From the NCBI RefSeq assembly GCF_015665295.1, contig NZ_JADFAJ010000004.1, forward strand, positions 1 to 64,000: 64,000 nt of DNA, read 5' to 3'. Below the pieces are notes generated by a model. That model saw nothing but the letters and a program-made list of their open reading frames with translations. It was not told the DNA's origin and made no database searches. Source of the DNA: Maricaulis sp. GTDB lineage: Bacteria > Pseudomonadota > Alphaproteobacteria > Caulobacterales > Maricaulaceae. The stretch's first letter is position 1. Every line of letters begins with the position of its first letter. Made by a program: the position numbers and the translations under genes. Positions 39,844-52,384 of the stretch are shown here, in pieces.

Positions 39844-40051
39844 AAGAGCCCTTTCGCCCCGCGCTTTCATGATCTCGCCCAGGCACTGCAAGAAGCAGTC
39901 CTGTTCGCAGTATTATGTAGGTGCTGGATGCAATTGGGTCGAGGGATGCCGCAGCCTGCGATCCCGCACAGCGGAAACGGCGTGCGCCGCCAGTGTTCGC
40001 GGGCGGTTTGCCCGAACGGGGCGAGAGGTATGAAACGAGGCGGGAAATGAA

Positions 40052-40128
40052 TGGTCGGAGTAGCAAGATTCGAACTTGCGACCCCCGCCTCCCGAAGACG
40101 GTGCTCTACCAGGCTGAGCTATACTCCG
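40052..40128 (-). tRNA. tRNA-Pro (CGG)
   Basis: Read on the minus strand it folds as a cloverleaf. The acceptor CGGAGTA pairs with TACTCCG, the D arm contains AGCTCAGCCTGGTAGAGC, the anticodon loop is TTCGGGA (anticodon CGG) and the T arm contains GTTCGAATC. The 3' ACCA is encoded. It diverges from tRNA-Gln across 236 bp in which no other gene is seen. Confidence 0.95.
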
Positions 40129-40364
40129 AACCGAGGCGCGGCTTATAGCCAACTCTTCTGCCCCGTGCAACGCGGCAAAGACAGCGGTTGCGGGGCGCGT
40201 GCAGTCAGCCGTCTGAAGCCTCGGCAAACGCCGGTGCCAACAGGCCGGTCAGGGCGGGTGGCTGCAAATTCTGTCATTTGAACTGCCATCAACCGCACTG
40301 CGCCGTTGCATCCCTCCGGAGGGTTCTGTAATTACCGCCAACCGTCGTTACTGGCGGTCACGGT

Positions 40365-40439
40365 TGGGGCGTCGCCAAGTGGTAAGGCACCGGTTTTTGG
40401 TATCGGCATTCCCAGGTTCGAATCCTGGCGCCCCAGCCA
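40365..40439 (+). tRNA. tRNA-Gln (TTG)
   Basis: The acceptor TGGGGCG pairs with CGCCCCA, the anticodon loop TTTTGGT gives TTG, the T arm contains GGTTCGAATCC, and GCCA is encoded at the end. It lies 63 bp before the start of the NRPS gene on the same strand. Confidence 0.95.
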
Positions 40440-40456
40440 ACTCATCCGTAACCACT

Positions 40457-40481
40457 TGTCCTGAATCACGAATTCGGGACA
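40457..40481 (+). terminator. Hairpin between tRNA-Gln and the NRPS gene
   Basis: TGTCCTGAAT (40457-40466) and ATTCGGGACA (40472-40481) pair with one G-T position. There is no T-run, so it may be a processing or attenuation structure rather than a full terminator. Confidence 0.4.
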
Positions 40482-40502
40482 CTGCAAGTTCAGGACCTGC
40501 CT

Positions 40503-43500
40503 ATGCAGGGGGCCTGTCACGCGGGTCTGCAGGTGGATGGATTGACCACTCAAATCTCGACATCCCACAGCCAGGAAGCGCTGTGGCTTGACGGTGAGGG
40601 CGCGGTCGATCCGGCCCGGCACAACCTGCTTTGGTGTGTGCGGCTGGACGGGCCCGTCGACCTCGCGGCGCTGGAAGCAGCCCTGACCCGCATCATCGAG
40701 CGGCATGAGGCCTTGCGGACCGTTTTCCGGTTTGCCGAGACCGGCCTGACCGGGCTCCGCCTGGAAGCGGATCCGGTGCATCTCGACGTCATTGACCTGA
40801 CCTGTCTTGACAGTGCGGGCCGGGCCGCGCGCCTCGATGATTTCGGGCTCATGCCCTATGTCCTCGGGACCGGCCCCCTCTACCGCTTCGCGCTGTTCAC
40901 CGCCGACGGCGAATCCGGCCGACTGGCCTGCGGCTTTCACCACCTGGTCATGGATGGCGGGTCCTGGATCCGCTTCTACAACGAGCTGGCGCTGGAGCTG
41001 GCCGGTGAGGCCGTTGCCGCTGCGCCATGCAGCTATGCCGATTGGGCTGCAGCGGAGCGGCAACGTCTGGCGGCCCCCGAGGCTGGCGCAAGCGCGCGGG
41101 ACCACTGGCATGCGGTGACCGGCGGGCGTACGGCTGCCTGGCCGCTGCCCTGGCAGTCTGCGCCCCGGCCTGCCGCCGATGCGGGGCCGCGCGGCCGGGT
41201 ATCCTCGGCCGCCCTGCCGGCAACGCTTCATGACACGCTGCAGGATCTGTCAGCGCGCGTCGGCGTGTCACCCTTCCGGATACTGGCCGCAGCGCTGGCG
41301 GCCTGGATCGCGGCCCTGTCGGAACGCCGACGCCTCGCCCTCTCGACCGTCTTCACCGGCCGCGATCACGCGACTGCCGACATGATCGGCTATTTCGTCC
41401 AGCTCGGCCTCATCATGGTCGAGCCAGGCCCTGATGACAGCCTGGTCAGCCTGGTGCGGCAGGTCGATGCCAGCATCCGCGCGGCGCGGCAGCATGAAAC
41501 CTATCCGGCAGCGCTGGCCCTGCGCACGCTGCGTCGCGATCATGATCCGGCCCGGATGCCGTTCTCGCCGGTTTCGGTCGTGCGCATGCCCGACGGGCCG
41601 CCGCGCTGCGCCGGGGCGCTGACCCTGTCGCAACACCGTGTCTTCCTTCCGGTCGCCGACCGGGCGGTCTCGGTCTATGTCGAGCCGGGCCAGGCCGGGA
41701 CGCGGCTGAGCTGGGTTGTGCGCCGGGATTTGGTCGATGCAGCCGGCCTGGCGCGCATGGTCACCGGCTTCACGGATTTTCTGACCGCCGCATTGGCCGA
41801 ACCCGACCGTCAGCTGGACGCGCTGGCGCGCGTGTCGCCGGCCGCCGCGGTCGAGGTCGAGCGATTGGGGCGCGGGCCTGACGAGCCGCGCCTGCCGGGG
41901 CAACGCCTGCATCAGCCCCTTCTTGACCAGGTGGTCCGCACCCCTGATCGGATTGCGCTCGTCGAGGGCGAGCGCAGCTGGCGCTACCAGGAACTGGCTG
42001 CGCGGGCTGCGCGCCTGGCCGGTGAGCTGGTTGCGGCCGGCACGAAGCCGGGCGAGGCGATCGGACTGGTCATGCCGGTCAGCGCCGAACTGGTGATTGC
42101 CGAGCTGGCCTGCATGATGGCTGGCCTGGTTTTCACGCCGCTCGACCCGGACTGGCCGGTCGCCCGGATCCGGGCCGTGCTCGACCAGCTTGATGCGCCG
42201 GTCGCACTGAAGCGCTCCGCCGATGATGTCGCTGACGAGCTGACCGGCATTGACTGGCTTGCAGTTGATGCCGGCCAGGATCTGGCGGATGTGGCCGCCA
42301 CCCCCTTCCGGCCTGGTCGACTGGATGCCTTGCCCGACCCGGCGCCGCTCTATTGTTTCTTCACCTCCGGCTCGACGGGGCGCCCCAAAGGGGCGGTGAA
42401 CTCCCATGCCGGCGTGCTGAACCGGCTGCAGGCGATGAGCGAAATGTTCGGCGTGCCGTCCGGCGATGTCGTGTTGGCGGGTGCCGCGGGCACGACCGAC
42501 ACCTCTGTCTGGCTGTTCTTCTGGCCGTTGCTGCACGGCGGACGCACGGTTCTGGCATCGCGCGAGACCATGGCCGTGCCGGAGCAGATTACCGCATTGT
42601 GTCGCCGCGCCGGCGTGACGGTGACCGACATGGTGCCCGCCATGTTGCATGACTGGGTGGCGCATCTGTCTGCCCTGCCGCGCAATGGCAGCCCGTTGCC
42701 ACGTCTGCGCCTGTTGTCGGTGGGTGGCGAGACGATGCGCGCCGCCGATGTGAAAGCCGTGCATACCCTGCTGCCGCATGTCGGCGTCTATAACACTTAC
42801 GGCCCGACCGAAGCGTCGATCGGCACCGTGTTCCACCGGGTCGAGCGGGGCGCCACCGACCCGGTACCCATCGGCCGTCCCCTGGCCAATGTCCGCGTTG
42901 CCATTGTCGATGCGGCGGGACGGGCGGCGCCGGTCGGGATCCCCGGCGAGCTGTGCCTGGCCGGGACCTGTCTCGGACTTGGTTATCTGGGCAATGCCGA
43001 GGCGAGCCGGCGTGTTTTTGTCGATCTCAGCCCGTTCGGCGGCACGCCGCGTCGTTATTACCGAACGGGCGACCGGGCCTGGCTCGACGAGACCGGGGTC
43101 TTTCATTTCCTCGGGCGCATCGACCATCAGGTCCAGATCAATGGCAACCGGGTCGAGCCCGGCGAGGTCGAGGCCGCCCTGCACCGGCTTGCCGGGATAT
43201 CCCAGGCGGCGGTCATTCCGGAACGGGCCGATGCGGACGCTGCGGCCACCGGACTTGTCGCCTATGTCGAGGCGCAGACACCCGGTGCGGCGCCGGACCT
43301 GGCTCAGATCAGGCGTGCCCTGTTGTCAGTCCTGCCGCGCCACATGCTGCCGACCCGCCTGGTCGTGCTTGAGCATCTGCCGCTGACCGGGACCGGCAAG
43401 CCGGACCGGGTGGCGCTCAAGGCGGCCGATCGCGGCGCTGTCATGCAGGCACGGCGTGCCCGCGCGCCCGAAACCCCGCTGGAGACCGACATCGCGCGAG

Positions 43501-44324
43501 TCTGGTCGGACACGCTCGGACTGGCGGAAATCGGCACGGAGGACGACTTCTTCACCGATCTGGGCGGGGATTCGCTGCGTGGACTGCAGGCCATGCTGGG
43601 GCTGGAGAGCCTGATCGGGCTGCCGGCCGGATTGCGCACGCTCTATGAGGCCCCGACCGTGCGACAGCTGGCGGCCCGCTTTGGCGAGGCGCCCGGCCTG
43701 GGCGCGCGCAACCGGCTGACCGCAGTCACAGACCGCCTGCAGCGCTCGCTGGCCGGCTGGCCGGGCCGCCCGGTGCGTCCGGGCGGGTTGCTGCGGACGC
43801 TCGGACCGGAAGACACGCCGGCCCACATGTTCTGGTGCTGCCAGACAGGGCGCGAGATGGAGCAGCTGGCGGCGGCGCTGGGCGCCGGGACCGGTTTCAC
43901 GGCCATGCGGTCGGGGCATCTGGTGATGGATTACGAGCCGGACCTGGTGACGGCCCTGGCAGAACGCTATGCCGACGAGGTGGAGGCCTTGCGCCCGGAC
44001 GGGGCGATCCTTGTCGGTGGCAATTGCCAGGGCGCCCGCATTGCCATCGCCGTGGCGGGCGTGCTGACGGGCCGTGGTCGCAAGGTTTCACGCGCCATCC
44101 TGCTCGACCAGACCGAATTTGAGACCGTGCCGTGTCCGGTCACGCTGGTTCTGGGGGCCGTCAGTCATGTCGGCAGCGGCCGGCAGGACCAGGCGCTGCA
44201 GGCCCGCCTCGCGGCGCAATGCCCGTCCGGTCTGACAATGGCCGTGCTTCCCGGCGCGCACGGCGAGTATTTCCGGACCGGGAATGTCGAAGTGCTCGCC
44301 GATATCATCCGGCAGGCATTGTAA
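40503..44324 (+). CDS. Single-module non-ribosomal peptide synthetase (C-A-T-TE)
   Basis: The 1273-residue protein carries one complete module. Its condensation domain (about 15-430) has the HHxxxDG catalytic motif at 146-152. Its adenylation domain (about 470-960) has FTSGSTGRPKG from 620, TYGPTEASIG, YRTGDRA, the C-terminal NGNRVEPGE and GTGKPDR; an Asp in TTDTSVW is where alpha-amino acid-activating domains keep their amino-group contact. A carrier domain has its phosphopantetheine Ser near 1024 in DLGGDSLRG. The C-terminal alpha/beta-hydrolase thioesterase has a Cys near 1175 in GGNCQGA instead of the usual Ser, with a His near 1253. No tailoring, transport, MbtH or PPTase genes adjoin it. 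The product is unknown, perhaps an N-acyl amino acid or small lactone. The start could also be the GTG at 40533. Confidence 0.9.
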   Translation: MQGACHAGLQVDGLTTQISTSHSQEALWLDGEGAVDPARHNLLWCVRLDGPVDLAALEAALTRIIERHEALRTVFRFAETGLTGLRLEADPVHLDVIDLTCLDSAGRAARLDDFGLMPYVLGTGPLYRFALFTADGESGRLACGFHHLVMDGGSWIRFYNELALELAGEAVAAAPCSYADWAAAERQRLAAPEAGASARDHWHAVTGGRTAAWPLPWQSAPRPAADAGPRGRVSSAALPATLHDTLQDLSARVGVSPFRILAAALAAWIAALSERRRLALSTVFTGRDHATADMIGYFVQLGLIMVEPGPDDSLVSLVRQVDASIRAARQHETYPAALALRTLRRDHDPARMPFSPVSVVRMPDGPPRCAGALTLSQHRVFLPVADRAVSVYVEPGQAGTRLSWVVRRDLVDAAGLARMVTGFTDFLTAALAEPDRQLDALARVSPAAAVEVERLGRGPDEPRLPGQRLHQPLLDQVVRTPDRIALVEGERSWRYQELAARAARLAGELVAAGTKPGEAIGLVMPVSAELVIAELACMMAGLVFTPLDPDWPVARIRAVLDQLDAPVALKRSADDVADELTGIDWLAVDAGQDLADVAATPFRPGRLDALPDPAPLYCFFTSGSTGRPKGAVNSHAGVLNRLQAMSEMFGVPSGDVVLAGAAGTTDTSVWLFFWPLLHGGRTVLASRETMAVPEQITALCRRAGVTVTDMVPAMLHDWVAHLSALPRNGSPLPRLRLLSVGGETMRAADVKAVHTLLPHVGVYNTYGPTEASIGTVFHRVERGATDPVPIGRPLANVRVAIVDAAGRAAPVGIPGELCLAGTCLGLGYLGNAEASRRVFVDLSPFGGTPRRYYRTGDRAWLDETGVFHFLGRIDHQVQINGNRVEPGEVEAALHRLAGISQAAVIPERADADAAATGLVAYVEAQTPGAAPDLAQIRRALLSVLPRHMLPTRLVVLEHLPLTGTGKPDRVALKAADRGAVMQARRARAPETPLETDIARVWSDTLGLAEIGTEDDFFTDLGGDSLRGLQAMLGLESLIGLPAGLRTLYEAPTVRQLAARFGEAPGLGARNRLTAVTDRLQRSLAGWPGRPVRPGGLLRTLGPEDTPAHMFWCCQTGREMEQLAAALGAGTGFTAMRSGHLVMDYEPDLVTALAERYADEVEALRPDGAILVGGNCQGARIAIAVAGVLTGRGRKVSRAILLDQTEFETVPCPVTLVLGAVSHVGSGRQDQALQARLAAQCPSGLTMAVLPGAHGEYFRTGNVEVLADIIRQAL

Positions 44325-44793
44325 GACCGTCATCACCGAAATGTGAGTATGAGTTTTCTTGTCCGGGTCAGCGCAGACAACGTGTCTGGCAAGGCAACCG
44401 GATGGTGCTTACCGTACTATCTTTGGGCGAACTGCCGCGCGCGGATGATCCTGTCAGGCGAATCCTGCCTTATTCTGCGCAGTTCAGGCCGCATTGCAGC
44501 CACAAAGATGTATTGATCGTAGTGTAACGCTGGTGTTAGCGTTCAACGGATTTTCAAGCGGCGCGCCTGCGCCGACGAGATGGCGGGGAAACCGTCACGG
44601 ACCGGGTGGCCTGCAGTTGCGGTAACCACTCATGCAGACTTGGGACGCTAAGTCGCTGTATCGGCGGTTTGGCTAGGCCGCTTGAACCAAGGGTAGGGGC
44701 CAGGCCAGCAGGTTATGCTGGCTCAGCATCGAAGTTTTATTGGGGCGGGGAGTCTTCCGGGACGAACCCGCATTGACCATTGTGAGGCGAGAA
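44325..44793 (+). promoter_or_regulatory. Long leader/promoter region of the TonB-ExbB operon
   Basis: No convincing gene lies in these 469 bases. Two hairpins are visible: AACGCT...AGCGTT at 44526-44543 and GCCAGCA...TGCTGGC at 44704-44722. The second is 72 bases before the DUF3450 start, where it would lie in the mRNA leader. No clear Fur box was identified. A long leader before an iron/nutrient uptake energiser suggests regulation, but its form is not recognisable. Confidence 0.45.
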
Positions 44794-45576
44794 ATGGTGA
44801 ACTTGAAGAATTTGGTTCGCGCGTCGCTTATGGCGACTGTGGCGGCGGGCGCCTTTGGGGGGGCCGCCGTAGCGCAGCTGAACCAAACGCTCGAAGTCGC
44901 GCGTGGTGATACGCAGAACGGGGCTCAGACCCAGGCGCGTATCGAACAGCTGGATGACCAGCGGACTGACATCGAACTGGAATATCGTGCGCTGCTCGAG
45001 CAGATCGAGTCGCAGCGTCTGTTCGTCGAGCAGCAGCAGGTCTTCCTCCGCTCGCAGGAGAATGAGATCGCCTCGCTCGAGCAGCAGATCGGCCGCGTCG
45101 ACAATATCGAGCGTGACCTGGCTCCGATGATGCGCGAAATGGTCGTGCTTCTTGAAGAATTCGTGGCCCTCGACCTGCCGTTCCGCCTTGAGGGCGAAGC
45201 CGGTCGTCTGGCTCGTATCGAGCGCCTGTACGAATACATTGATGATCCGAACATCTCGCCGGCCGAGCGCTATCGCCTGATCCTGAACGCTTATGACATC
45301 GAAGCCTCTTACGGCCGCGGTGTGAACACCTATGACGAGGAAGTCCTTGAAGACGGTGTGCCGGTTCAGGTGAAAGTCCTGCAGATCGGTCGCGTCGCGA
45401 TGATCCGCCGTTACCCCGACAACAGCCTGACGATGCTGCACAACGGCTCGTCTGACTGGGAAGCCCTTCCGGGCAGCTATCTTGCCAACGTGACCCGCGC
45501 CATCCGCATCGCCGATGAAGTGACGACCCCGTCGATCTTCCTCGCGCCGCTGCCTGGCCCGACGGTCGCCCAGTAA
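44794..45576 (+). CDS. DUF3450 periplasmic coiled-coil protein
   Basis: This 260-residue protein has a signal peptide (1-26, AVA) and a long coiled coil from about 30 to 110 (ARIEQLDDQRTDIELEYRALL, then a Gln/Glu-rich helix). A C-terminal DUF3450 domain follows, with APMMREMVVLLEEFV, YEYIDDPNISPAERYRLILNAYDIE and RVAMIRRYPDNSL. It is always found ahead of TtpC-type ExbB genes in TonB2-like operons and is thought to act in the periplasm with that complex. It opens the seven-gene operon, 24 bp before the long ExbB. Confidence 0.88.
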   Translation: MVNLKNLVRASLMATVAAGAFGGAAVAQLNQTLEVARGDTQNGAQTQARIEQLDDQRTDIELEYRALLEQIESQRLFVEQQQVFLRSQENEIASLEQQIGRVDNIERDLAPMMREMVVLLEEFVALDLPFRLEGEAGRLARIERLYEYIDDPNISPAERYRLILNAYDIEASYGRGVNTYDEEVLEDGVPVQVKVLQIGRVAMIRRYPDNSLTMLHNGSSDWEALPGSYLANVTRAIRIADEVTTPSIFLAPLPGPTVAQ

Positions 45577-45600
45577 CGGCTTGGAACGGAGAGTTAAGTT

Positions 45601-46989
45601 ATGAAGACCACCATGAAGATGCTCGCCGCCGCCGTTTCGCTTGGCGTGGCTCTTACCGCCGGTGCTGTGGCCCAGACCCAGCCGGCCGGTTCCCTCAATG
45701 AACTCCTCAACCGCGTGCGTTCCGACGTCCGTGAAGCGAGCGCCGAAAACGCCGCCCGCCTGCGCGAGTTCCAGTCCTCAACCAACACCCAGCAGGCCCA
45801 GCTCAATACGGCCCGGGGTGAACTGTCTGCCCTCGAGCGTCAGGCGACCCAGCTGTCGGCTGACTTTGAAGCCAACCAGGTGCGTATTGACGAGCTCGAT
45901 GCCGAGCTTCGCCAGCGCCAGGGTGCCTTCGGTGAGCTGTTTGGCGCTGCGCGCCAGTCGGCCGGCGAATTCGCTGCCATCCTGAACCAGTCGGTGATTT
46001 CGGCCCAGTTCCCGGGTCGCGCCGATGCGCTGGAAACCCTGTCCGAAAGCCGGACCCTGCCGACCCGTGCGGAACTCGACTTCATTCCGCGTCGTGTCAT
46101 CGAAGAGATGATCCAGCAGCAGCAGGTCGTCACCTTCAATGGTCGTGTGACCGGTCTCGGCGACGGTGCCGCGGTTCCGATCACCCGCGTTGGTCCGTTC
46201 CTGGCTTTCACCAGCTACAACAACAACCAGCGTTTCGCCCTCTGGGGTGAGAGCGAGAACACCGGCGCCTACTCGCTGACCGACATGCCGGCCCAGCCGC
46301 CGGCGAACTTCCTCGGTGCGGCGTCGACCCTGTTCAACGCCGATCCGAACGAGATCGTCGAAGGTGTCGTCGATCCGTCGCGCGGCGCCCTGCTGAACAT
46401 CTACAAGGACGTTCCGGACCTCAATGAGCGTATCGCTCAGTCGGGCAATGTCGGCCTGGTCATCATCGGCCTGCTGGTCATCTCTGCCCTGTTCGGTATC
46501 TTCCGCATGATCACCCTGCTGATGACGCAGGCAGCTGTCTCGGGCCAGAAGCGCAAGTCTTCCGGTTCCAAGGGTAACCCGCTGGGCCGTGTCATGCTGG
46601 CTTATGAAGGTGCCAAGGACAAAGACGTCGAGACGATGGAACTCAAGCTCGACGAAGCCATCCTGCAGGAAACGCCGAAGCTCGAATTCGGTCTCAACTT
46701 CCTCAAGCTGGCTGCCGGTATCGCACCGCTGCTGGGTCTTCTGGGTACCGTCACCGGTATGATCAAGACCTTCACCCAGATCACCCTGTTCGGTACGGGT
46801 GACCCGAAAATCATGGCCGGTGGTATCTCCGAAGCCCTGATGACCACGGTTCTGGGTCTCATCGCGGCGATCCCGCTTCTGTTCATCCACAGCTTCGCGC
46901 AAAGCTTCGCGCGCGGCGTTCAGCAGGTGCTCGAAGAGCAGGCGGCTGGCATGATCGCCCGTCACGCTGAAGAACGCGCACAAGGCTAA
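45601..46989 (+). CDS. TtpC-like long ExbB/TolQ protein with periplasmic coiled coil
   Basis: This 462-residue protein has a signal peptide (1-24, AVA), a periplasmic coiled-coil region (about 30-130), a membrane span near 281-301 (VGLVIIGLLVISALFGIF), and a C-terminal MotA/TolQ/ExbB core with LAAGIAPLLGLLGTVTGMI and TTVLGLIAAIPLLFIHSF. The architecture matches TtpC of Vibrio TonB2 systems, which is needed besides normal ExbB/ExbD. It likely links the DUF3450 protein to the proton-driven motor. The next ExbB starts 14 bp downstream. Confidence 0.9.
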   Translation: MKTTMKMLAAAVSLGVALTAGAVAQTQPAGSLNELLNRVRSDVREASAENAARLREFQSSTNTQQAQLNTARGELSALERQATQLSADFEANQVRIDELDAELRQRQGAFGELFGAARQSAGEFAAILNQSVISAQFPGRADALETLSESRTLPTRAELDFIPRRVIEEMIQQQQVVTFNGRVTGLGDGAAVPITRVGPFLAFTSYNNNQRFALWGESENTGAYSLTDMPAQPPANFLGAASTLFNADPNEIVEGVVDPSRGALLNIYKDVPDLNERIAQSGNVGLVIIGLLVISALFGIFRMITLLMTQAAVSGQKRKSSGSKGNPLGRVMLAYEGAKDKDVETMELKLDEAILQETPKLEFGLNFLKLAAGIAPLLGLLGTVTGMIKTFTQITLFGTGDPKIMAGGISEALMTTVLGLIAAIPLLFIHSFAQSFARGVQQVLEEQAAGMIARHAEERAQG

Positions 46990-47003
46990 CCGGAGGAAGC
47001 GTT

Positions 47004-47540
47004 ATGGATTTCCAGGCCGTACAAACCGGCCTTCAGGAGTTCCTCGAGCGCGGGGGCCCCGTCCTGGTTGTCATCATGGCAACTACATTTGTGATGTGGG
47101 CCTTTATCCTCGAGCGCTTCGCCTATTTCTACATGGCCCATGAGGGCTTTGCGAAATCGGCGAAGAGGGAGTGGAATGCGCGGGCAGACCGGAATAGCTG
47201 GTATGCCCACGCCATCCGCGACCAACTCATCTCGGAGGTCAAATCGCGTTGCGATCAGAATGTCGAGCTGGTGAAAACCCTCGTCGCTGTCGCTCCGCTC
47301 TTCGGACTGTTGGGAACAGTGACCGGCATGGTCTCGGTTTTCGACGTCATGTCGATTTCGGGTTCCTCGGACGCCCAGGCCATGTCGGCCGGTGTCTCGC
47401 GGGCCACGATCCCGACCATGGCTGGCATGGTGGCGTCCCTTTCGGGTCTCATCTTCGCCAACCAGATCGAAATCCTCGCCAAGCGTCGCGTGTCGAAGCT
47501 TGCTGATGAGCTCGAGATCGGTGAGGGGGCTGTGGAATGA
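47004..47540 (+). CDS. exbB: ExbB (short form)
   Basis: The 178-residue product has three membrane helices. The first is near 18-36, and the last two form the conserved LVAVAPLFGLLGTVTGMVSVF and AGMVASLSGLIFANQIEI channel helices. ExbB pentamers with ExbD couple proton flow to TonB. It is shorter than classic ExbB (~240) and matches ExbB2 of TonB2 systems. Its stop overlaps the first exbD start by four bases. Confidence 0.93.
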   Translation: MDFQAVQTGLQEFLERGGPVLVVIMATTFVMWAFILERFAYFYMAHEGFAKSAKREWNARADRNSWYAHAIRDQLISEVKSRCDQNVELVKTLVAVAPLFGLLGTVTGMVSVFDVMSISGSSDAQAMSAGVSRATIPTMAGMVASLSGLIFANQIEILAKRRVSKLADELEIGEGAVE

Positions 47541-47944
47541 GGCGTCGTCAAAAACACAAGGACGATCAGGCCGAAGTGAACATGACGCCGATGCTCGACA
47601 TCGTGTTCATCCTGCTCATCTTCTTCATCGTCACCGCCACCTTCCTCTCGGAAGAAGGCATCGACATGCGTCCGCCTGCGGACAATCCGGACGATCCGCC
47701 GCCTGACGCGGCACCGCCGATCGTGATCCAGGTTGATGGCGATAACGAGATCTTCGTCAACCAGGTCCGGACCGACGTTGATCGCGTCCTGTCGGCCGTC
47801 AACCGCTTCCGGGCGGAGGAGCCGAGTTCCGCGGTGCTTCTTGAAGTCTATGACGAAGCCGATCATGGCATCATCGTTCAGATCTGGGATGAAATGGGCG
47901 TCAATGGCGTTCCGGTTTCGATCCAGCGTCAGACCGACGGATAG
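47537..47944 (+). CDS. exbD: ExbD, first copy
   Basis: This 135-residue protein has a short basic cytoplasmic N-terminus and a single membrane helix with the essential proton-carrying Asp at residue 21 (TPMLDIVFILLIFFIV). A periplasmic domain with a Pro-rich linker (PDDPPPDAAPP) and a PIVIQVDGDNEIFVN strand follows. It is one of two adjacent ExbDs that may form a heterodimer in the motor. Confidence 0.93.
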   Translation: MRRRQKHKDDQAEVNMTPMLDIVFILLIFFIVTATFLSEEGIDMRPPADNPDDPPPDAAPPIVIQVDGDNEIFVNQVRTDVDRVLSAVNRFRAEEPSSAVLLEVYDEADHGIIVQIWDEMGVNGVPVSIQRQTDG

Positions 47945-47955
47945 GGGAGGTTTAC

Positions 47956-48357
47956 ATGTCTAGACGTGCAAGCCGCGTGAGTACCGATGAGGAAGAGGTC
48001 GAACTGAACATGACGCCCATGCTGGACGTCGTCTTCATCCTCCTGATCTTCTTCATCGTCACCTCCGTCTTCATCAAGGAGCCCGGTGTGGACACTGTCC
48101 GCCCGGACGCCCTGACCGAAGAGGATGAGAACCCTTCCATGCTCGTTGCCGTGACCGCGGATAACGAGATCTGGGTCAATCGTCGGGTCTATGAAATGAA
48201 CGAGCTTCGGGGGGTCATCGAGCAGTTGCTGCAAGAGAACCCCAAGGGTCGTGCCATGATCCAGGGTGATGAAAGTGCGAATATCGGTCTGATCCTCGAC
48301 GTCCAGGAGCTCCTTTCGGAGATGGAAGTCGAAGTGAAGATTTCGACATTCCAGTAG
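47956..48357 (+). CDS. exbD: ExbD, second copy
   Basis: The 133-residue product has its membrane Asp at residue 24 (TPMLDVVFILLIFFIV) and a periplasmic domain with MLVAVTADNEIWVNRR. It differs from the first ExbD mostly in the periplasmic half. Both keep the Asp, so both should carry protons. It starts 11 bp after the first exbD and ends 14 bp before tonB. Confidence 0.93.
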   Translation: MSRRASRVSTDEEEVELNMTPMLDVVFILLIFFIVTSVFIKEPGVDTVRPDALTEEDENPSMLVAVTADNEIWVNRRVYEMNELRGVIEQLLQENPKGRAMIQGDESANIGLILDVQELLSEMEVEVKISTFQ

Positions 48358-48371
48358 CGGGAGGAGAGAAA

Positions 48372-48989
48372 ATGGGAAGTTTCATACGTCTCGTTATCGG
48401 TGTCCCGCTTGCGGCCATCATCACGGTGTTCCTGTTTTATGTGATGCAGGACCTGATCAAGACCGAAGAGGTCCAGCAGGACGAGGCGGCTGACGATCTG
48501 GTCTTCTCGATCAATGATGAAGTGGCCGAGGTGGAAGCCCGTCGCCGCGACACCACGATCGAGGATGTCCAGCAAGTCGATCCGCCACCCCCGCCGCCGC
48601 AGATCGAGCGGCAGCGTGCGGAACAGCCGTCGGAAGGTCTCGCCACCGTCATGGGTGCGATTCCGGACTTCGAGGCACCGCAGCTCAACTCGGACAGCGT
48701 CAACTTCTCGGTCTCTGACCGGGATGCCCAGCCGCTGGTCCGGATCGAGCCGCAATACCCGCTTCGTGCCGCCGAGCGCGGCATTGAGGGGAGTTGCTGG
48801 GTTCGCTTTGATGTGACGCCGGACGGTACGCCGACCAATGTCGACATCTACCGCTGTGACAGCTCCTTCTTCGAGAGCGCGTCGCGTCGGGCTGTCGAGC
48901 GTTGGCGGTACAATCCGAAAGTCGAAAACGGTATTCCGGTCGCCCGTCGTGGCGTGGAAACCCGCTTTGACTTCCGCTTGGCCGACTAG
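48372..48989 (+). CDS. tonB: TonB-family energy transducer, copy 1
   Basis: This 205-residue protein has one N-terminal membrane helix (about 7-25), a short Glu/Pro linker with VDPPPPPPQIERQ near 69-80, and a C-terminal TonB domain with VRIEPQYPLRAAERGIEGSCWVRF, DVTPDGTPTNV and VERWRYNPKVENG. The short Pro region is typical of TonB2, and the C-terminal YP motif contacts TonB boxes of outer-membrane receptors. It follows the second exbD and precedes the TPR gene. Confidence 0.92.
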   Translation: MGSFIRLVIGVPLAAIITVFLFYVMQDLIKTEEVQQDEAADDLVFSINDEVAEVEARRRDTTIEDVQQVDPPPPPPQIERQRAEQPSEGLATVMGAIPDFEAPQLNSDSVNFSVSDRDAQPLVRIEPQYPLRAAERGIEGSCWVRFDVTPDGTPTNVDIYRCDSSFFESASRRAVERWRYNPKVENGIPVARRGVETRFDFRLAD

Positions 48990-49129
48990 TGTTCGGGCGC
49001 GGCGGGCCTGACCGGTCCGCTGCGTCCCCGCTGGCCGCCCGGGATGAACCAAGGACCGGTGCGGTCCGCATCCCGCGAGATTTTGGAAAGCCGACCCGGG
49101 GAGTTGGGGTTGGTATGAAGGAGCCATCG

Positions 49130-50650
49130 ATGATCCGTTTCAACGGTTTCGATACATCAGGCCTGTTGCGCTCTGTCGCGACGCTTGCTCTCGCCGTTTC
49201 GCTGGCCGGAGTCATGATTTCCGATGCCGATGCGCAGCGTCGACGGAACAATAACGACGAAGACGCCGAGCAGAACCAGGCTGAACGGGTCTTCTCGGCG
49301 GCCATTGGCCAGATCGTTCTGGAAGCCCAGGAATTCCAGTCGAATGACCAGTTCCAGGAGTCGATTACGGCCCTCAACCGGGCCCTCGGCAACTCCGGGA
49401 TCAACCCGTACGAGCGCATGATCTCGCTGCAGATGCGAGGCCGGGGCTATTACGAGCTGGAGCAGGTTTCGCGGGCCATCCAGGACTGGGAAGCGGCGAT
49501 CGCCACCGGCGCCATGCTGCCCCAGGAAGTCTCTGACCTGCGCATCAATATCGGCCAGCTGTACATTTCCGAGGGTGACTACACCCGCGGTATCCAGGCG
49601 CTGGAAGCAGCCGTTGCCCAGCTGGGCGTCGATGCCCTCAACCCGCGCGTCATGCGCATGCTGGCCCAGGCCTATGCCCAGGCCGAGCGTTATCGTGACG
49701 GTGTTGTCTGGGCCGAGCGTTTCTGGAACGCCCAGCCGGCGGGCGAACGGGTTCGTGGTGACTATTCGCTGATGCTGTTTTTCTACCAGCAGCTCGAGCG
49801 CATCCCGGACCAGTTCCGTATCATCGAGGAGATGGTCCAGCGCTGGCCGACCGAGAAGAGCAATTGGCGGTCCTACGCCTCTCTGCTGGCCCAGACGGGT
49901 CGCGAGCAGGATGCGTTTGAAGCCAACAAGATCATGTACATCAACGGCATGCTCACCGAGAGCCGTGAAGTCGTGGCCCTGGCCCAGTACTATTCCTTCT
50001 ATGAATACCCCTATCGTGGCGCTGTGGTTCTCGAGCGCGAGCTCAATGCCGGCGTCGTCGAGCGGACCCGCAACAATCTCAGCCTTCTTGCCAATATGTG
50101 GCGTCAGGCGCGTGAGTGGGAGCGGGCCATCCCGGTTCTGCGCCAGCTGGCTCAGCTGACCGGTGACGGTGACGATTATCTCAAGCTGGCCGAGGCCCTC
50201 TGGCAGCGTCGTGAACTCGACGAGGCTGAAGACGCCTTCACCGAAGCGCTCAACCGCGGCGGCCTTGACCGTCCGGGTGATGCGTGGACGCTGCTGGGCA
50301 ATGTGCGGGCCGAGCTTGGCCGCGAGGAATCGGCCCTGGCCGCCTTCCGCGAGGGCGCGCGCTACCCGTATTCGCGCCGCACGGCCAATGGCTGGGCCAC
50401 CTTCATCACCAACCGCCAGCGTGCCGCGCGGGAACGTGTCGAGATCCGTGAACGCGTCCGCCAGGACGAGTGCCGCTTCTCGATCAGCGATCTTCTCGAA
50501 ACGGCCACCCTGCTGGGTGATATCGACGAGGATGGCCGCATCGTGGTCGATGTGCCGGAGCGCTGTACCGACCTGTACAATGTCCATGGCGAGCGTCTTG
50601 ACGCCGTTGCGACAGCCCAGGAAAACGGCACGGGTGGCGACGCCGGCTAG
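49130..50650 (+). CDS. TPR protein of the TonB system, copy 1
   Basis: The ATG at 49130 has AAGGAG seven bases upstream. The ~506-residue product has a signal peptide (about 1-34, ADA) and a solenoid of tetratricopeptide repeats through most of its length (for example YERMISLQMRGRGYYELEQ and DDYLKLAEALWQRRELDEAED). A C-terminal region with two Cys (DECRFSISDLL, ERCTDLYNV) follows. TPR lipoproteins or periplasmic TPR proteins end TonB2-type operons and assist substrate uptake. A strong terminator follows. A paralogue is encoded next. Confidence 0.88.
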   Translation: MIRFNGFDTSGLLRSVATLALAVSLAGVMISDADAQRRRNNNDEDAEQNQAERVFSAAIGQIVLEAQEFQSNDQFQESITALNRALGNSGINPYERMISLQMRGRGYYELEQVSRAIQDWEAAIATGAMLPQEVSDLRINIGQLYISEGDYTRGIQALEAAVAQLGVDALNPRVMRMLAQAYAQAERYRDGVVWAERFWNAQPAGERVRGDYSLMLFFYQQLERIPDQFRIIEEMVQRWPTEKSNWRSYASLLAQTGREQDAFEANKIMYINGMLTESREVVALAQYYSFYEYPYRGAVVLERELNAGVVERTRNNLSLLANMWRQAREWERAIPVLRQLAQLTGDGDDYLKLAEALWQRRELDEAEDAFTEALNRGGLDRPGDAWTLLGNVRAELGREESALAAFREGARYPYSRRTANGWATFITNRQRAARERVEIRERVRQDECRFSISDLLETATLLGDIDEDGRIVVDVPERCTDLYNVHGERLDAVATAQENGTGGDAG

Positions 50651-50676
50651 ACCGGATTGCCACTGAGAATGACCAA

Positions 50677-50706
50677 CGCCCCGGCTGCCTGCAGCCGGGG
50701 CGTTTT
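50677..50706 (+). terminator. Strong intrinsic terminator of the ExbB-TonB-TPR operon
   Basis: Twelve-base arms (50677-50688 and 50691-50702) enclose a minimal CT centre and are followed by four T. It lies 27 bp beyond the TPR stop, cleanly separating the seven-gene operon from the second TPR gene. Confidence 0.92.
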
Positions 50707-50721
50707 CATGTTCGCATCAGG

Positions 50722-50785
50722 CTGTCCCGATCCCGGCCTGTCCCGATCCCGGCCTGTCCCGATCCCGGCCTGTCCCGATCCCGGC
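50722..50785. repeat. Four perfect 16-bp tandem repeats
   Basis: CTGTCCCGATCCCGGC occurs four times head to tail with no change, followed by a partial CTG. It lies 16 bp after the operon terminator and before the second TPR gene. It is non-coding and probably arose by slippage; copy number may vary between strains. Confidence 0.95.
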
Positions 50786-50923
50786 CTGATCGCCCCAGGC
50801 GGGCGCCTCGCCCAAAAGACAACCCCAAATCGCCGCATTCCCGCCATCTTGGGCGGCAAGACTTTCATTACATGACGGTAATGCCGGGCTGGGGAGTTCG
50901 CGTCATGGCTTGGGGAGAAGGAC

Positions 50924-52384
50924 ATGGACACACCGGTTTGTCCGGCGCGCAATGCCGGCTGGCCCCGCCTTGCGGTGGCGGCCTTGGCAATATCACTCAT
51001 GGTTTTCGGCCACCCATTCGCTGCCGCGTTCGCCGATGACCGGCCCGGCGGCACCCTGTCGCCGCCGGTGGCAGCCCGATTGCTGGAATTGATCGAGCTG
51101 GAGGGCCTGGAGGCCTGGGACGAGGCGGAGGCCGGCTATGCCGCAATGATCGAGGGCTGGTCGCTGAGCCCCTATGAGCGGGCCATCCTGCTGCGCCAGC
51201 GCGGCCGTGCCCGCTATGAACTCGACAGCATGGACGGCGCCATCAGCGACTGGCGCACCGTGATTGCGCTGGCAAATCTTCCCGATGACGATTTGAACGC
51301 GCTGCGGATCAATACCGGACAGCTTCTGATGGTCGATGGCCAGTATCGCGCCGGCATCAATCTGACCGAGGCGGCGATCGGACATGGCGTTGCGGTGAAC
51401 GCCGACCTCGCGATGCGACTGGCCCAGGCCTATGCCCAGGACGATGATCATCAGGGCGGCCTGGCCTATGCCCGCGATGCGTTCACGCTTGCCGAGGCAG
51501 ACGGTGCGGAGGGGCGGCAACACATTTCCGTCCTGCTCTATTACTACCAGCAGCTCGAACGCCTGCCCGACCAGATGGCGCTGATGGAGCTGATGGTGGC
51601 GCGCTGGCCCGATGAGAAGGCCAACTGGACCAGCTATGCCGCATTGCTGGCACAAAATGGCCGGGAGGCTGATGCCTTCGAGGTCAATCGCATCATGTAT
51701 CTGAACGGCATGCTCACCTCGAGCGAGGAGCTGGTACGGCTGGCGCAATACTATTCCTATTACGACTACCCTTATGGCGGCGCGGTCATGCTCGAGCGCG
51801 AGCTCAATGCCGGGCGGGTTGAAGCGTCTGTGAGCAATTTGCAGCTGCTGGCCAATCTCTGGCGGCATGCCCGTGAGTGGGAGCGCGCCCTGCCGGTTCT
51901 GGAACGCGTCGCCACCACGTCGGGCCATGGCCGTGACTACGAGGCCTATGGCGAGGCACTGTACCGGGCCGCGCAGTTCAGCGAGGCCGAGGCGGTATTC
52001 CTGCAGGCCATCAATCGCGGCGGCCTGTCTCGGCCCGGGGATACCTGGACCTATGTCGGCAATGCCCGCATGGAACTCGGCCGGCTGAACGCCGCCGAAC
52101 AGGCCTTCCTGCGGGCGCTTGACTGGGATTACTCACGTGCCGGGGCGCAGGGCTGGCTCGATTTCATCGCGTCCAAGCGCGCTGTCCTGCGCGCGGCTCG
52201 CGAGCTGGAAATCCTGACCACGATCGAGTCCTGCGAAATCGACATCGAACGGCTTCGTCGCCAGGTCGTGGTGTCCGAGGACGAGTATGACAGCGAGGGC
52301 CGGCGCGTACTGGCACTGCCAGCCCCGTGCGAGCCCTGGTTTGACAGCTATGGCCATCGCCTGCCGGATCCGGAGCGGACTTGA
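50924..52384 (+). CDS. TPR protein, copy 2 (paralogue of 49130-50650)
   Basis: This 486-residue protein has a signal peptide (about 1-38) and the same TPR solenoid. Matching segments with copy 1 include SPYERAILLRQRGRARYELD, YYQQLERLPDQMALMELMV, and LQLLANLWRHAREWERALPVL. The C-terminal two-Cys region is kept (ESCEIDIERL, APCEPWF). GGAGAAGG lies just before the ATG. It is placed between the first operon's terminator and the second tonB gene, so the TPR-TonB order is reversed relative to the first set. Confidence 0.87.
   Translation: MDTPVCPARNAGWPRLAVAALAISLMVFGHPFAAAFADDRPGGTLSPPVAARLLELIELEGLEAWDEAEAGYAAMIEGWSLSPYERAILLRQRGRARYELDSMDGAISDWRTVIALANLPDDDLNALRINTGQLLMVDGQYRAGINLTEAAIGHGVAVNADLAMRLAQAYAQDDDHQGGLAYARDAFTLAEADGAEGRQHISVLLYYYQQLERLPDQMALMELMVARWPDEKANWTSYAALLAQNGREADAFEVNRIMYLNGMLTSSEELVRLAQYYSYYDYPYGGAVMLERELNAGRVEASVSNLQLLANLWRHAREWERALPVLERVATTSGHGRDYEAYGEALYRAAQFSEAEAVFLQAINRGGLSRPGDTWTYVGNARMELGRLNAAEQAFLRALDWDYSRAGAQGWLDFIASKRAVLRAARELEILTTIESCEIDIERLRRQVVVSEDEYDSEGRRVLALPAPCEPWFDSYGHRLPDPERT

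Follow-up and report, generated by a model that had tools for sequence, protein, structure and literature searches.

We analyzed a stretch of 64,000 nucleotides from Maricaulis sp. (contig NZ_JADFAJ010000004.1, positions 1 to 64,000; hereafter the window), in which a gene for a single-module non-ribosomal peptide synthetase (NRPS) lies beside a tRNA-Gln gene. The module ends in a thioesterase (TE) which, judged from its sequence, is a member of a rare family with a cysteine nucleophile and, as structure prediction indicates, without a lid over the active site. As to its role, we tentatively favour, short of calling it probable, the reading that this open TE would pass an acyl-aminoacyl product on to an acceptor that is bulky and probably of glycan type. 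Judging by its rare relatives, enzymes of this kind may couple amino acids to large molecules built on sugars instead of setting small products free.

The NRPS module and its thioesterase

The gene and its domains are located in the window as follows.
40503..44324, + strand: single-module NRPS with condensation (C), adenylation (A), carrier (T) and TE domains (C-A-T-TE); 1273 amino acids as an ATG open reading frame (ORF), alternative start TTG 40542
40554..41822, + strand: C domain, residues about 18–440, HHLVMDG intact
41925..43442, + strand: A domain, residues about 475–980, ten-residue code read as DTWDSGTIGK
43491..43679, + strand: carrier domain (T, or peptidyl carrier protein, PCP), LGGDSL, Ser1024
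43722..44321, + strand: cysteine TE domain, predicted to be lidless; Cys1175, Asp1202, His1253

With its domain order and catalytic motifs intact, the protein is a complete one-module NRPS, as the first-pass annotation of this DNA had proposed. Pfam places Condensation at residues 18–353 (2.9e-39, 135.5 bits against a cut-off of 30.6; HHLVMDG at 146–152), AMP-binding at 475–829 (7.3e-74, 249.3 bits against 29.9), then AMP-binding_C, and PP-binding at 997–1059 (38.8 bits against 20.8), with the carrier serine, Ser1024, in LGGDSL. The A domain also passes TIGR01733 (346.7 bits against 317.4) and keeps the core motif TSGSTGRPKG, so that the key core residues are in place. The Pfam Thioesterase family (PF00975, residues 1150–1204) scored 23.3 bits in the whole protein, under its cut-off of 26.4, and 28.6 bits, over it, when the isolated C-terminal 203 amino acids were used as the query; the catalytic motifs GGNCQG (Cys1175), LLDQ (Asp1202) and GAHGEYF (His1253) are all present. 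The nearest solved C domains are those of Txo2 (91.3 bits) and Txo1 (82.7 bits), and the N-terminal position of this domain bears out the earlier view that a donor from elsewhere is required. TTG 40542 is a possible true start, and the alignment with the homologue of Rhodobacter sp. CZR27 begins at residue 14. On these sequence features the module is real and looks functional.

Extraction of the A-domain code, which the annotation had recommended, gave DTWDSGTIGK; this and all codes below were read via motif anchors against GrsA positions. The strings DTWD, DSWD, TWDI, DVGSI and WDIG had no match in the main text of PMC12283262. A single condensation domain, that of the NRPS (2/2 candidates scored), is present in the host genome (3.16 Mb in 44 contigs, 98.6% complete), and its only match to a lidless TE profile is the NRPS TE (28/28 candidates scored). 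As far as tested, the module is therefore a lone one, as had been stated. When the genome was searched with the whole protein at E ≤ 1e-40, the best 4 of 15 candidates included no second match; searches of this kind scored only a few candidates in each genome (4 here, 2 in another search), which makes such absences soft. The absence of an adjacent MbtH gene extends to the whole genome, where none was found (63/63 candidates scored).

The TE was modelled with AlphaFold2 on 29 family sequences (pLDDT 92.0, pTM 0.90). In an alignment with the surfactin and NocB TEs, Cys1175, which the annotation had recognized in a nucleophile elbow, indeed occupies the nucleophile position; as TE residue 102, it directly follows the predicted strand 96–101. 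Asp1202 (model residue 129) stands immediately past beta6 (122–128), and we assign Cys1175, Asp1202 and His1253 from the sequence as the putative nucleophile, acid and histidine. Only 11 residues connect beta6 to beta7 (140–145), whereas the lid loop between these strands has 54–101 residues in structurally characterised NRPS TEs (PMC11298585). The TE is predicted from this model to be without a lid.

The domain has the alpha/beta hydrolase fold of type I NRPS TEs, and the best fold matches of the model, tied within about 1 Z unit, are the TEs of Pks13 (5V3Y; Z 19.3, 2.8 Å, 170 residues), fengycin synthetase (18.6) and DEBS (18.3), followed by AB3403 (4ZXH; 17.6), SulM from sulfazecin monobactam synthesis (8W2C; 17.0 over 171 residues) and the obafluorin synthetase ObiF1 (6N8E; 15.6); the absence of a family from this list does not exclude that family. 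Unlike the window TE, the Pks13 TE belongs to a polyketide system, and it is longer by about 80 residues across the aligned part. The Pks13 TE uses a serine nucleophile and transfers mycolate to trehalose, a sugar acceptor.

Cysteine in a GXCXG elbow is shared with ObiF (PMC6668435), and both SulM and ObiF1, NRPS enzymes with a cysteine TE, are among the fold matches; the annotation had drawn from the cysteine the prospect of an ObiF-like beta-lactone. However, ObiF and SulM combine an acid after beta7 with a large lid or constrained pocket, features to which their papers tie the formation of strained rings, while nearly all other characterised TE structures have the acid after beta6 (PMC11298585, PMC6668435), as does the lidless model of the window TE. 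In SulM, the lid loop spans Gly2844–Val2918 and an Asp follows beta7 (PMC11298585). ObiF1 has a three-helix lid and an integrated MbtH-like domain (PMC6668435), its acid after beta7 being numbered beta6 in the ObiF paper (PMC6668435, PMC11298585); the large ObiF lid has been suggested to exclude water from the active site (PMC6668435). The Z scores are also higher to the Pks13, fengycin and DEBS TEs. AB3403, a four-domain Acinetobacter NRPS, is likewise a single module with a cysteine nucleophile and an acid after beta6, and its TE is uncharacterised (PMC11298585), which means that cysteine alone does not predict a strained ring. It differs in being longer: 193 model residues cover 343 numbered C-terminal residues of AB3403, which probably include its carrier domain. 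Altogether, formation of a strained beta-lactone or beta-lactam ring is very improbable here, and a cysteine elbow alone should not be taken as a sign of a beta-lactone.

A rare thioesterase family and its partner domains

To delimit the family, a pattern built on GGNCQG was run over a collection of 84,980 species, where 31 of the 54 pattern matches were relatives; viral contigs gave two pattern matches with no relative among them. A tblastn search of plasmids with the TE, free of this pattern, returned five records. In the resulting alignment of 34 TEs, which omits the incomplete scan loci L072, L076 and L078, the elbow residue is Cys throughout (34/34). The scan pattern forces this in 28 of them, but Cys is also found without it, in all five plasmid matches and in genome G320; two half-matching ordinary TEs carry GGFSGG instead. 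The acid is Glu in 29 sequences, Asp in two (including the window) and Asn in three, His is kept in 32 of the 34, and the spacing from the acid to the beta7 column is 9–11 residues in all.

The window TE scores 234.5 bits against the lidless TE profile, of which it is itself a row. Among 385 genomes of the class, with the best eight candidates or fewer scored per genome, 11 match the profile at E ≤ 1e-12; only the window and one other match are full (226.8 bits for the latter) and the remaining nine are partial, at 67.3 bits or less. Among 137 genomes of the taxonomic family there is one further full match, in G075 of the same genus, and a partial one in G121. The G075 protein is a TE on its own, with an acyl-AMP ligase and a carbamoyltransferase next to it. 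Searches of a library of open-access papers for lidless TEs, for NRPS TEs that use glycan acceptors and for fusions of a Mur ligase with an NRPS yielded no paper naming one.

Proteins with a C domain in front of A-T-TE are the window NRPS and those of Rhodobacter CZR27 (38% identity), OFTM385 (L051, 36%), Holophagaceae (L050) and Methylomagnum, besides the multi-module L065. The CZR27 protein (WP_096788080.1), aligned over 1295 columns, has the same full-length C-A-T-TE order, the same lidless cysteine TE and a near-identical A-code (DTWDIGTIAK). It differs in its TE acid, Glu against Asp in the window, and in its setting, a plasmid that also carries glycosyltransferases, a polysaccharide pyruvyl transferase and, 12 kb upstream, an exosortase gene. 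The L051 code, read by eye, is DSWDLGTIGK; most of the window code is thus retained in both of the full-length relatives nearest to it. In Methylomagnum (L047, 11752–17808), the C-A-T-TE is fused to a sulfotransferase and TPR repeats, its TE has Tyr in place of His, and its code, DVQFIAHVVK, is presumably proline-like.

In 13 of the 31 scan loci and on plasmid pAMI4 of Paracoccus aminophilus (WP_020952399.1), a MurC-like ligase takes the place of the C domain (in L055 by motif only). These Mur-type proteins share with the window a lidless cysteine TE behind A-T (32–41% identity in scan members), whereas their A-code is DVGSIAAVEK or near. Scores of their ligases against NCBIfam murC range from 278 to 370 bits around a cut-off of 335, which only L052 passes among the five tested. 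A YdcF (DUF218) gene lies directly upstream in 13 of the 14 loci (the L055 contig begins inside the gene) and a GH3 gene downstream in nine of the 14. The operon-like arrangement of YdcF and MurC-like ligase-A-T-lidless TE, in L046 (11034–16924), L052, L054, L056, L058–L064, L069 and L070, forms a set of 13 loci, mostly Rhodobacterales, with the GH3 enzyme next in nine; no paper naming it was found in the open-access library searched. In the TE tree, L052 falls outside the supported Mur clade, which may reflect either more than one origin of the fusion or an unsure tree at this point.

Other relatives are standalone lidless TEs. L048 (14971–22006) and L080 combine one with an acyl-AMP ligase, a P450 and a carbamoyltransferase, with an acyl carrier protein annotated in L048; L075 has the P450 and carbamoyltransferase with no ligase match. 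The G075 locus (L129, 4264–9993) has TE, ligase and carbamoyltransferase, with a P450-like ORF seen by eye only. A further group from Bradyrhizobium and Rhodobacter capsulatus (L067, 9911–11020; L071; L073) has Asn as the acid in all three members and acyl-AMP ligase and GT2-type genes nearby; the L067 TE is followed by a weak Ig-like match (PF16158, under the cut-off).

Possible routes of product release

In the mechanism we consider, the A domain (code DTWDSGTIGK) would activate one amino acid, the T domain would carry it, and the C domain would acylate its amine with a donor from another protein or metabolite. The TE would then take the acyl-aminoacyl chain onto Cys1175 and release it, most likely by transfer to, or handling of, something bulky, where a sugar, a glycan or another envelope molecule would offer an amino or hydroxyl group. 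Such an acceptor appears the likeliest because the lid that would close over the active site has, by prediction, been lost in this family. We infer the activity, donor, amino acid and acceptor of the NRPS, and for the window protein the bulky acceptor comes from the relatives alone; we judge free hydrolysis or strained-ring closure to be less likely than such a transfer.

A bulky substrate or acceptor is also plausible because the name of the MurC-like partner refers to work on a sugar nucleotide, UDP-N-acetylmuramate, and because glycan genes lie near about half of the non-Mur relatives. For example, a glycosyltransferase is directly downstream of the CZR27 NRPS, RgpF is upstream of the Holophagaceae locus (L050), and in Methylomagnum glycosyltransferases follow the gene with the fused sulfotransferase. 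Glycan genes are also near Planktothricoides L053 and Idiomarina L074 and L065, the last being negative with our seed enzymes while Pfam finds glycosyltransferase domains in it. CZR27 and Bradyrhizobium SRS-191 have three cassette genes in common (59, 51 and 70% identity). Overall, ten glycan seed enzymes match 9 of 17 non-Mur loci and none of the 16 Mur loci.

Several observations weigh against transfer to a bulky acceptor. The seed-enzyme search is negative in 8 of the 17 non-Mur loci, and the contrast with the Mur loci is inflated because six of the nine positive loci were themselves sources of seeds, the exceptions being L049, L071 and L073. The same ten enzymes have no match in the 64-kb window at E 1e-3, nor in 11.2 kb of L051 at 1e-6. 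One group of relatives, with standalone TEs, adjoins acyl-AMP-ligase, P450 or carbamoyltransferase genes rather than glycan genes, which fits small products. Within the family, the His is missing in 2 and the acid in 3 of the 34 lidless TEs, and the window TE itself sits on a long branch (1.54) with no firm placement in the tree. Moreover, a missing lid could equally mean faster hydrolysis.

Hydrolytic release of a small free N-acyl amino acid, such as a lipo-amino acid or a signal, is indeed almost as likely as the transfer we favour. C-A-T-TE is the minimal set for such a product, the triad residues are all present and the seed enzymes detected no glycan enzyme nearby; the clusters of acyl-AMP ligase and standalone TE, one of them in a same-genus genome, point the same way. 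What speaks for transfer rather than hydrolysis is that the lid is missing in 34 of 34 family members, while the NRPS TEs compared in PMC11298585 have one, and that 14 relatives are fused to MurC-like ligases and about half of the non-Mur loci hold glycan genes.

A broader version of the bulky-acceptor reading, which we consider unlikely on present evidence, is that the TE represents a new class of carrier-protein release domain, an open cysteine acyltransferase joining amino acids to sugar nucleotides or glycans. C domains and MurC-type ligases would then be interchangeable partners, and a single kind of glycan-aminoacylating machine would exist in two forms, the window protein and the MurC-A-T-TE proteins. 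If aminoacyl transfer to glycans were true, NRPS chemistry would have its own dedicated way into bacterial envelopes, and through the MurC fusions enzymes of peptidoglycan precursor synthesis would be tied directly to NRPS assembly lines. Should release be only hydrolytic, the lidless TE still offers a rare natural test of the role of the TE lid.

The variable site beside tRNA-Gln

Two further features define the genomic position of the gene.
40365..40439, + strand: tRNA-Gln (anticodon ttg), bordering the variable site on the left and outside the NRPS
44250..44307, + strand: stretch near the NRPS 3' end, of which the nearest same-genus genome (L100, G063) keeps a scar; the match is best, and exact, at 44267–44291

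The NRPS ORF begins 63 bp after tRNA-Gln, precisely as reported earlier. Sixteen other same-genus genomes have the DUF3450 gene that borders the site on the right; 15 were examined, G068 being left out for its short contig, and all 15 loci show the order SppA, tRNA-Gln, DUF3450 with no NRPS in between. In G063, the nearest genome by DUF3450 (97% identity), the short gap matches the NRPS 3' end and reads GRYFRTGNVE against GEYFRTGNVE in the window. Its local score is 30, compared with a maximum of 20 in 200 shuffles and 14–18 in six other siblings scored. Since G063 carries this scar, the NRPS gene was probably present in the common ancestor of both species and later lost by G063, as far as the sequences tell.

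The annotation had regarded the site as a classic acquisition point. It is a variable one, given the 15 same-genus loci without the gene, whereas the scar in the nearest species and the other signs looked for make the case for a classic acquisition point weaker than stated. No 12-mer of the tRNA-Gln gene recurs in 40441–46000, on which account we rejected a recent phage- or integron-type insertion, and none of the four flanking proteins scanned with Pfam matches an integrase family. Composition leaves a recent foreign origin undecided: total GC of the NRPS (0.696) is above that of its neighbours (0.606–0.658), while GC at third codon positions (0.806) is inside their range (0.743–0.807).

The absence from 15 of 15 same-genus sites and the scar in the nearest genome would also fit a silent or disappearing gene, an orphan that has moved, has no partner genes, is poorly primed and was already lost by the sister species. 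The only phosphopantetheinyl transferase of the ACPS family found in the genome looks AcpS-like and adjoins ORFs that by eye resemble pdxJ, RNase III and Era, no MbtH was found, and a sigma-70 consensus scan found no promoter-like site on the + strand of 40000–44900. However, such scans overlook many alphaproteobacterial promoters, transcription from the tRNA-Gln promoter is possible, and the 3.8-kb ORF retains all catalytic motifs and a third-position GC within the neighbours' range. We therefore regard a silent gene as distinctly unlikely.

On the opposite strand, the ORF 40332–41231 (-), which at its C-terminal end (GRQDSNLGMPIPKTGALPLG) runs through the tRNA-Gln gene, is probably not a gene. 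Beyond the right edge of the variable site, 44740–52384 encodes DUF3450 (Pfam), followed by proteins identified by eye as ExbB, ExbB, ExbD, ExbD, TonB and TPR proteins, and we read this set as a TonB-type energy operon.

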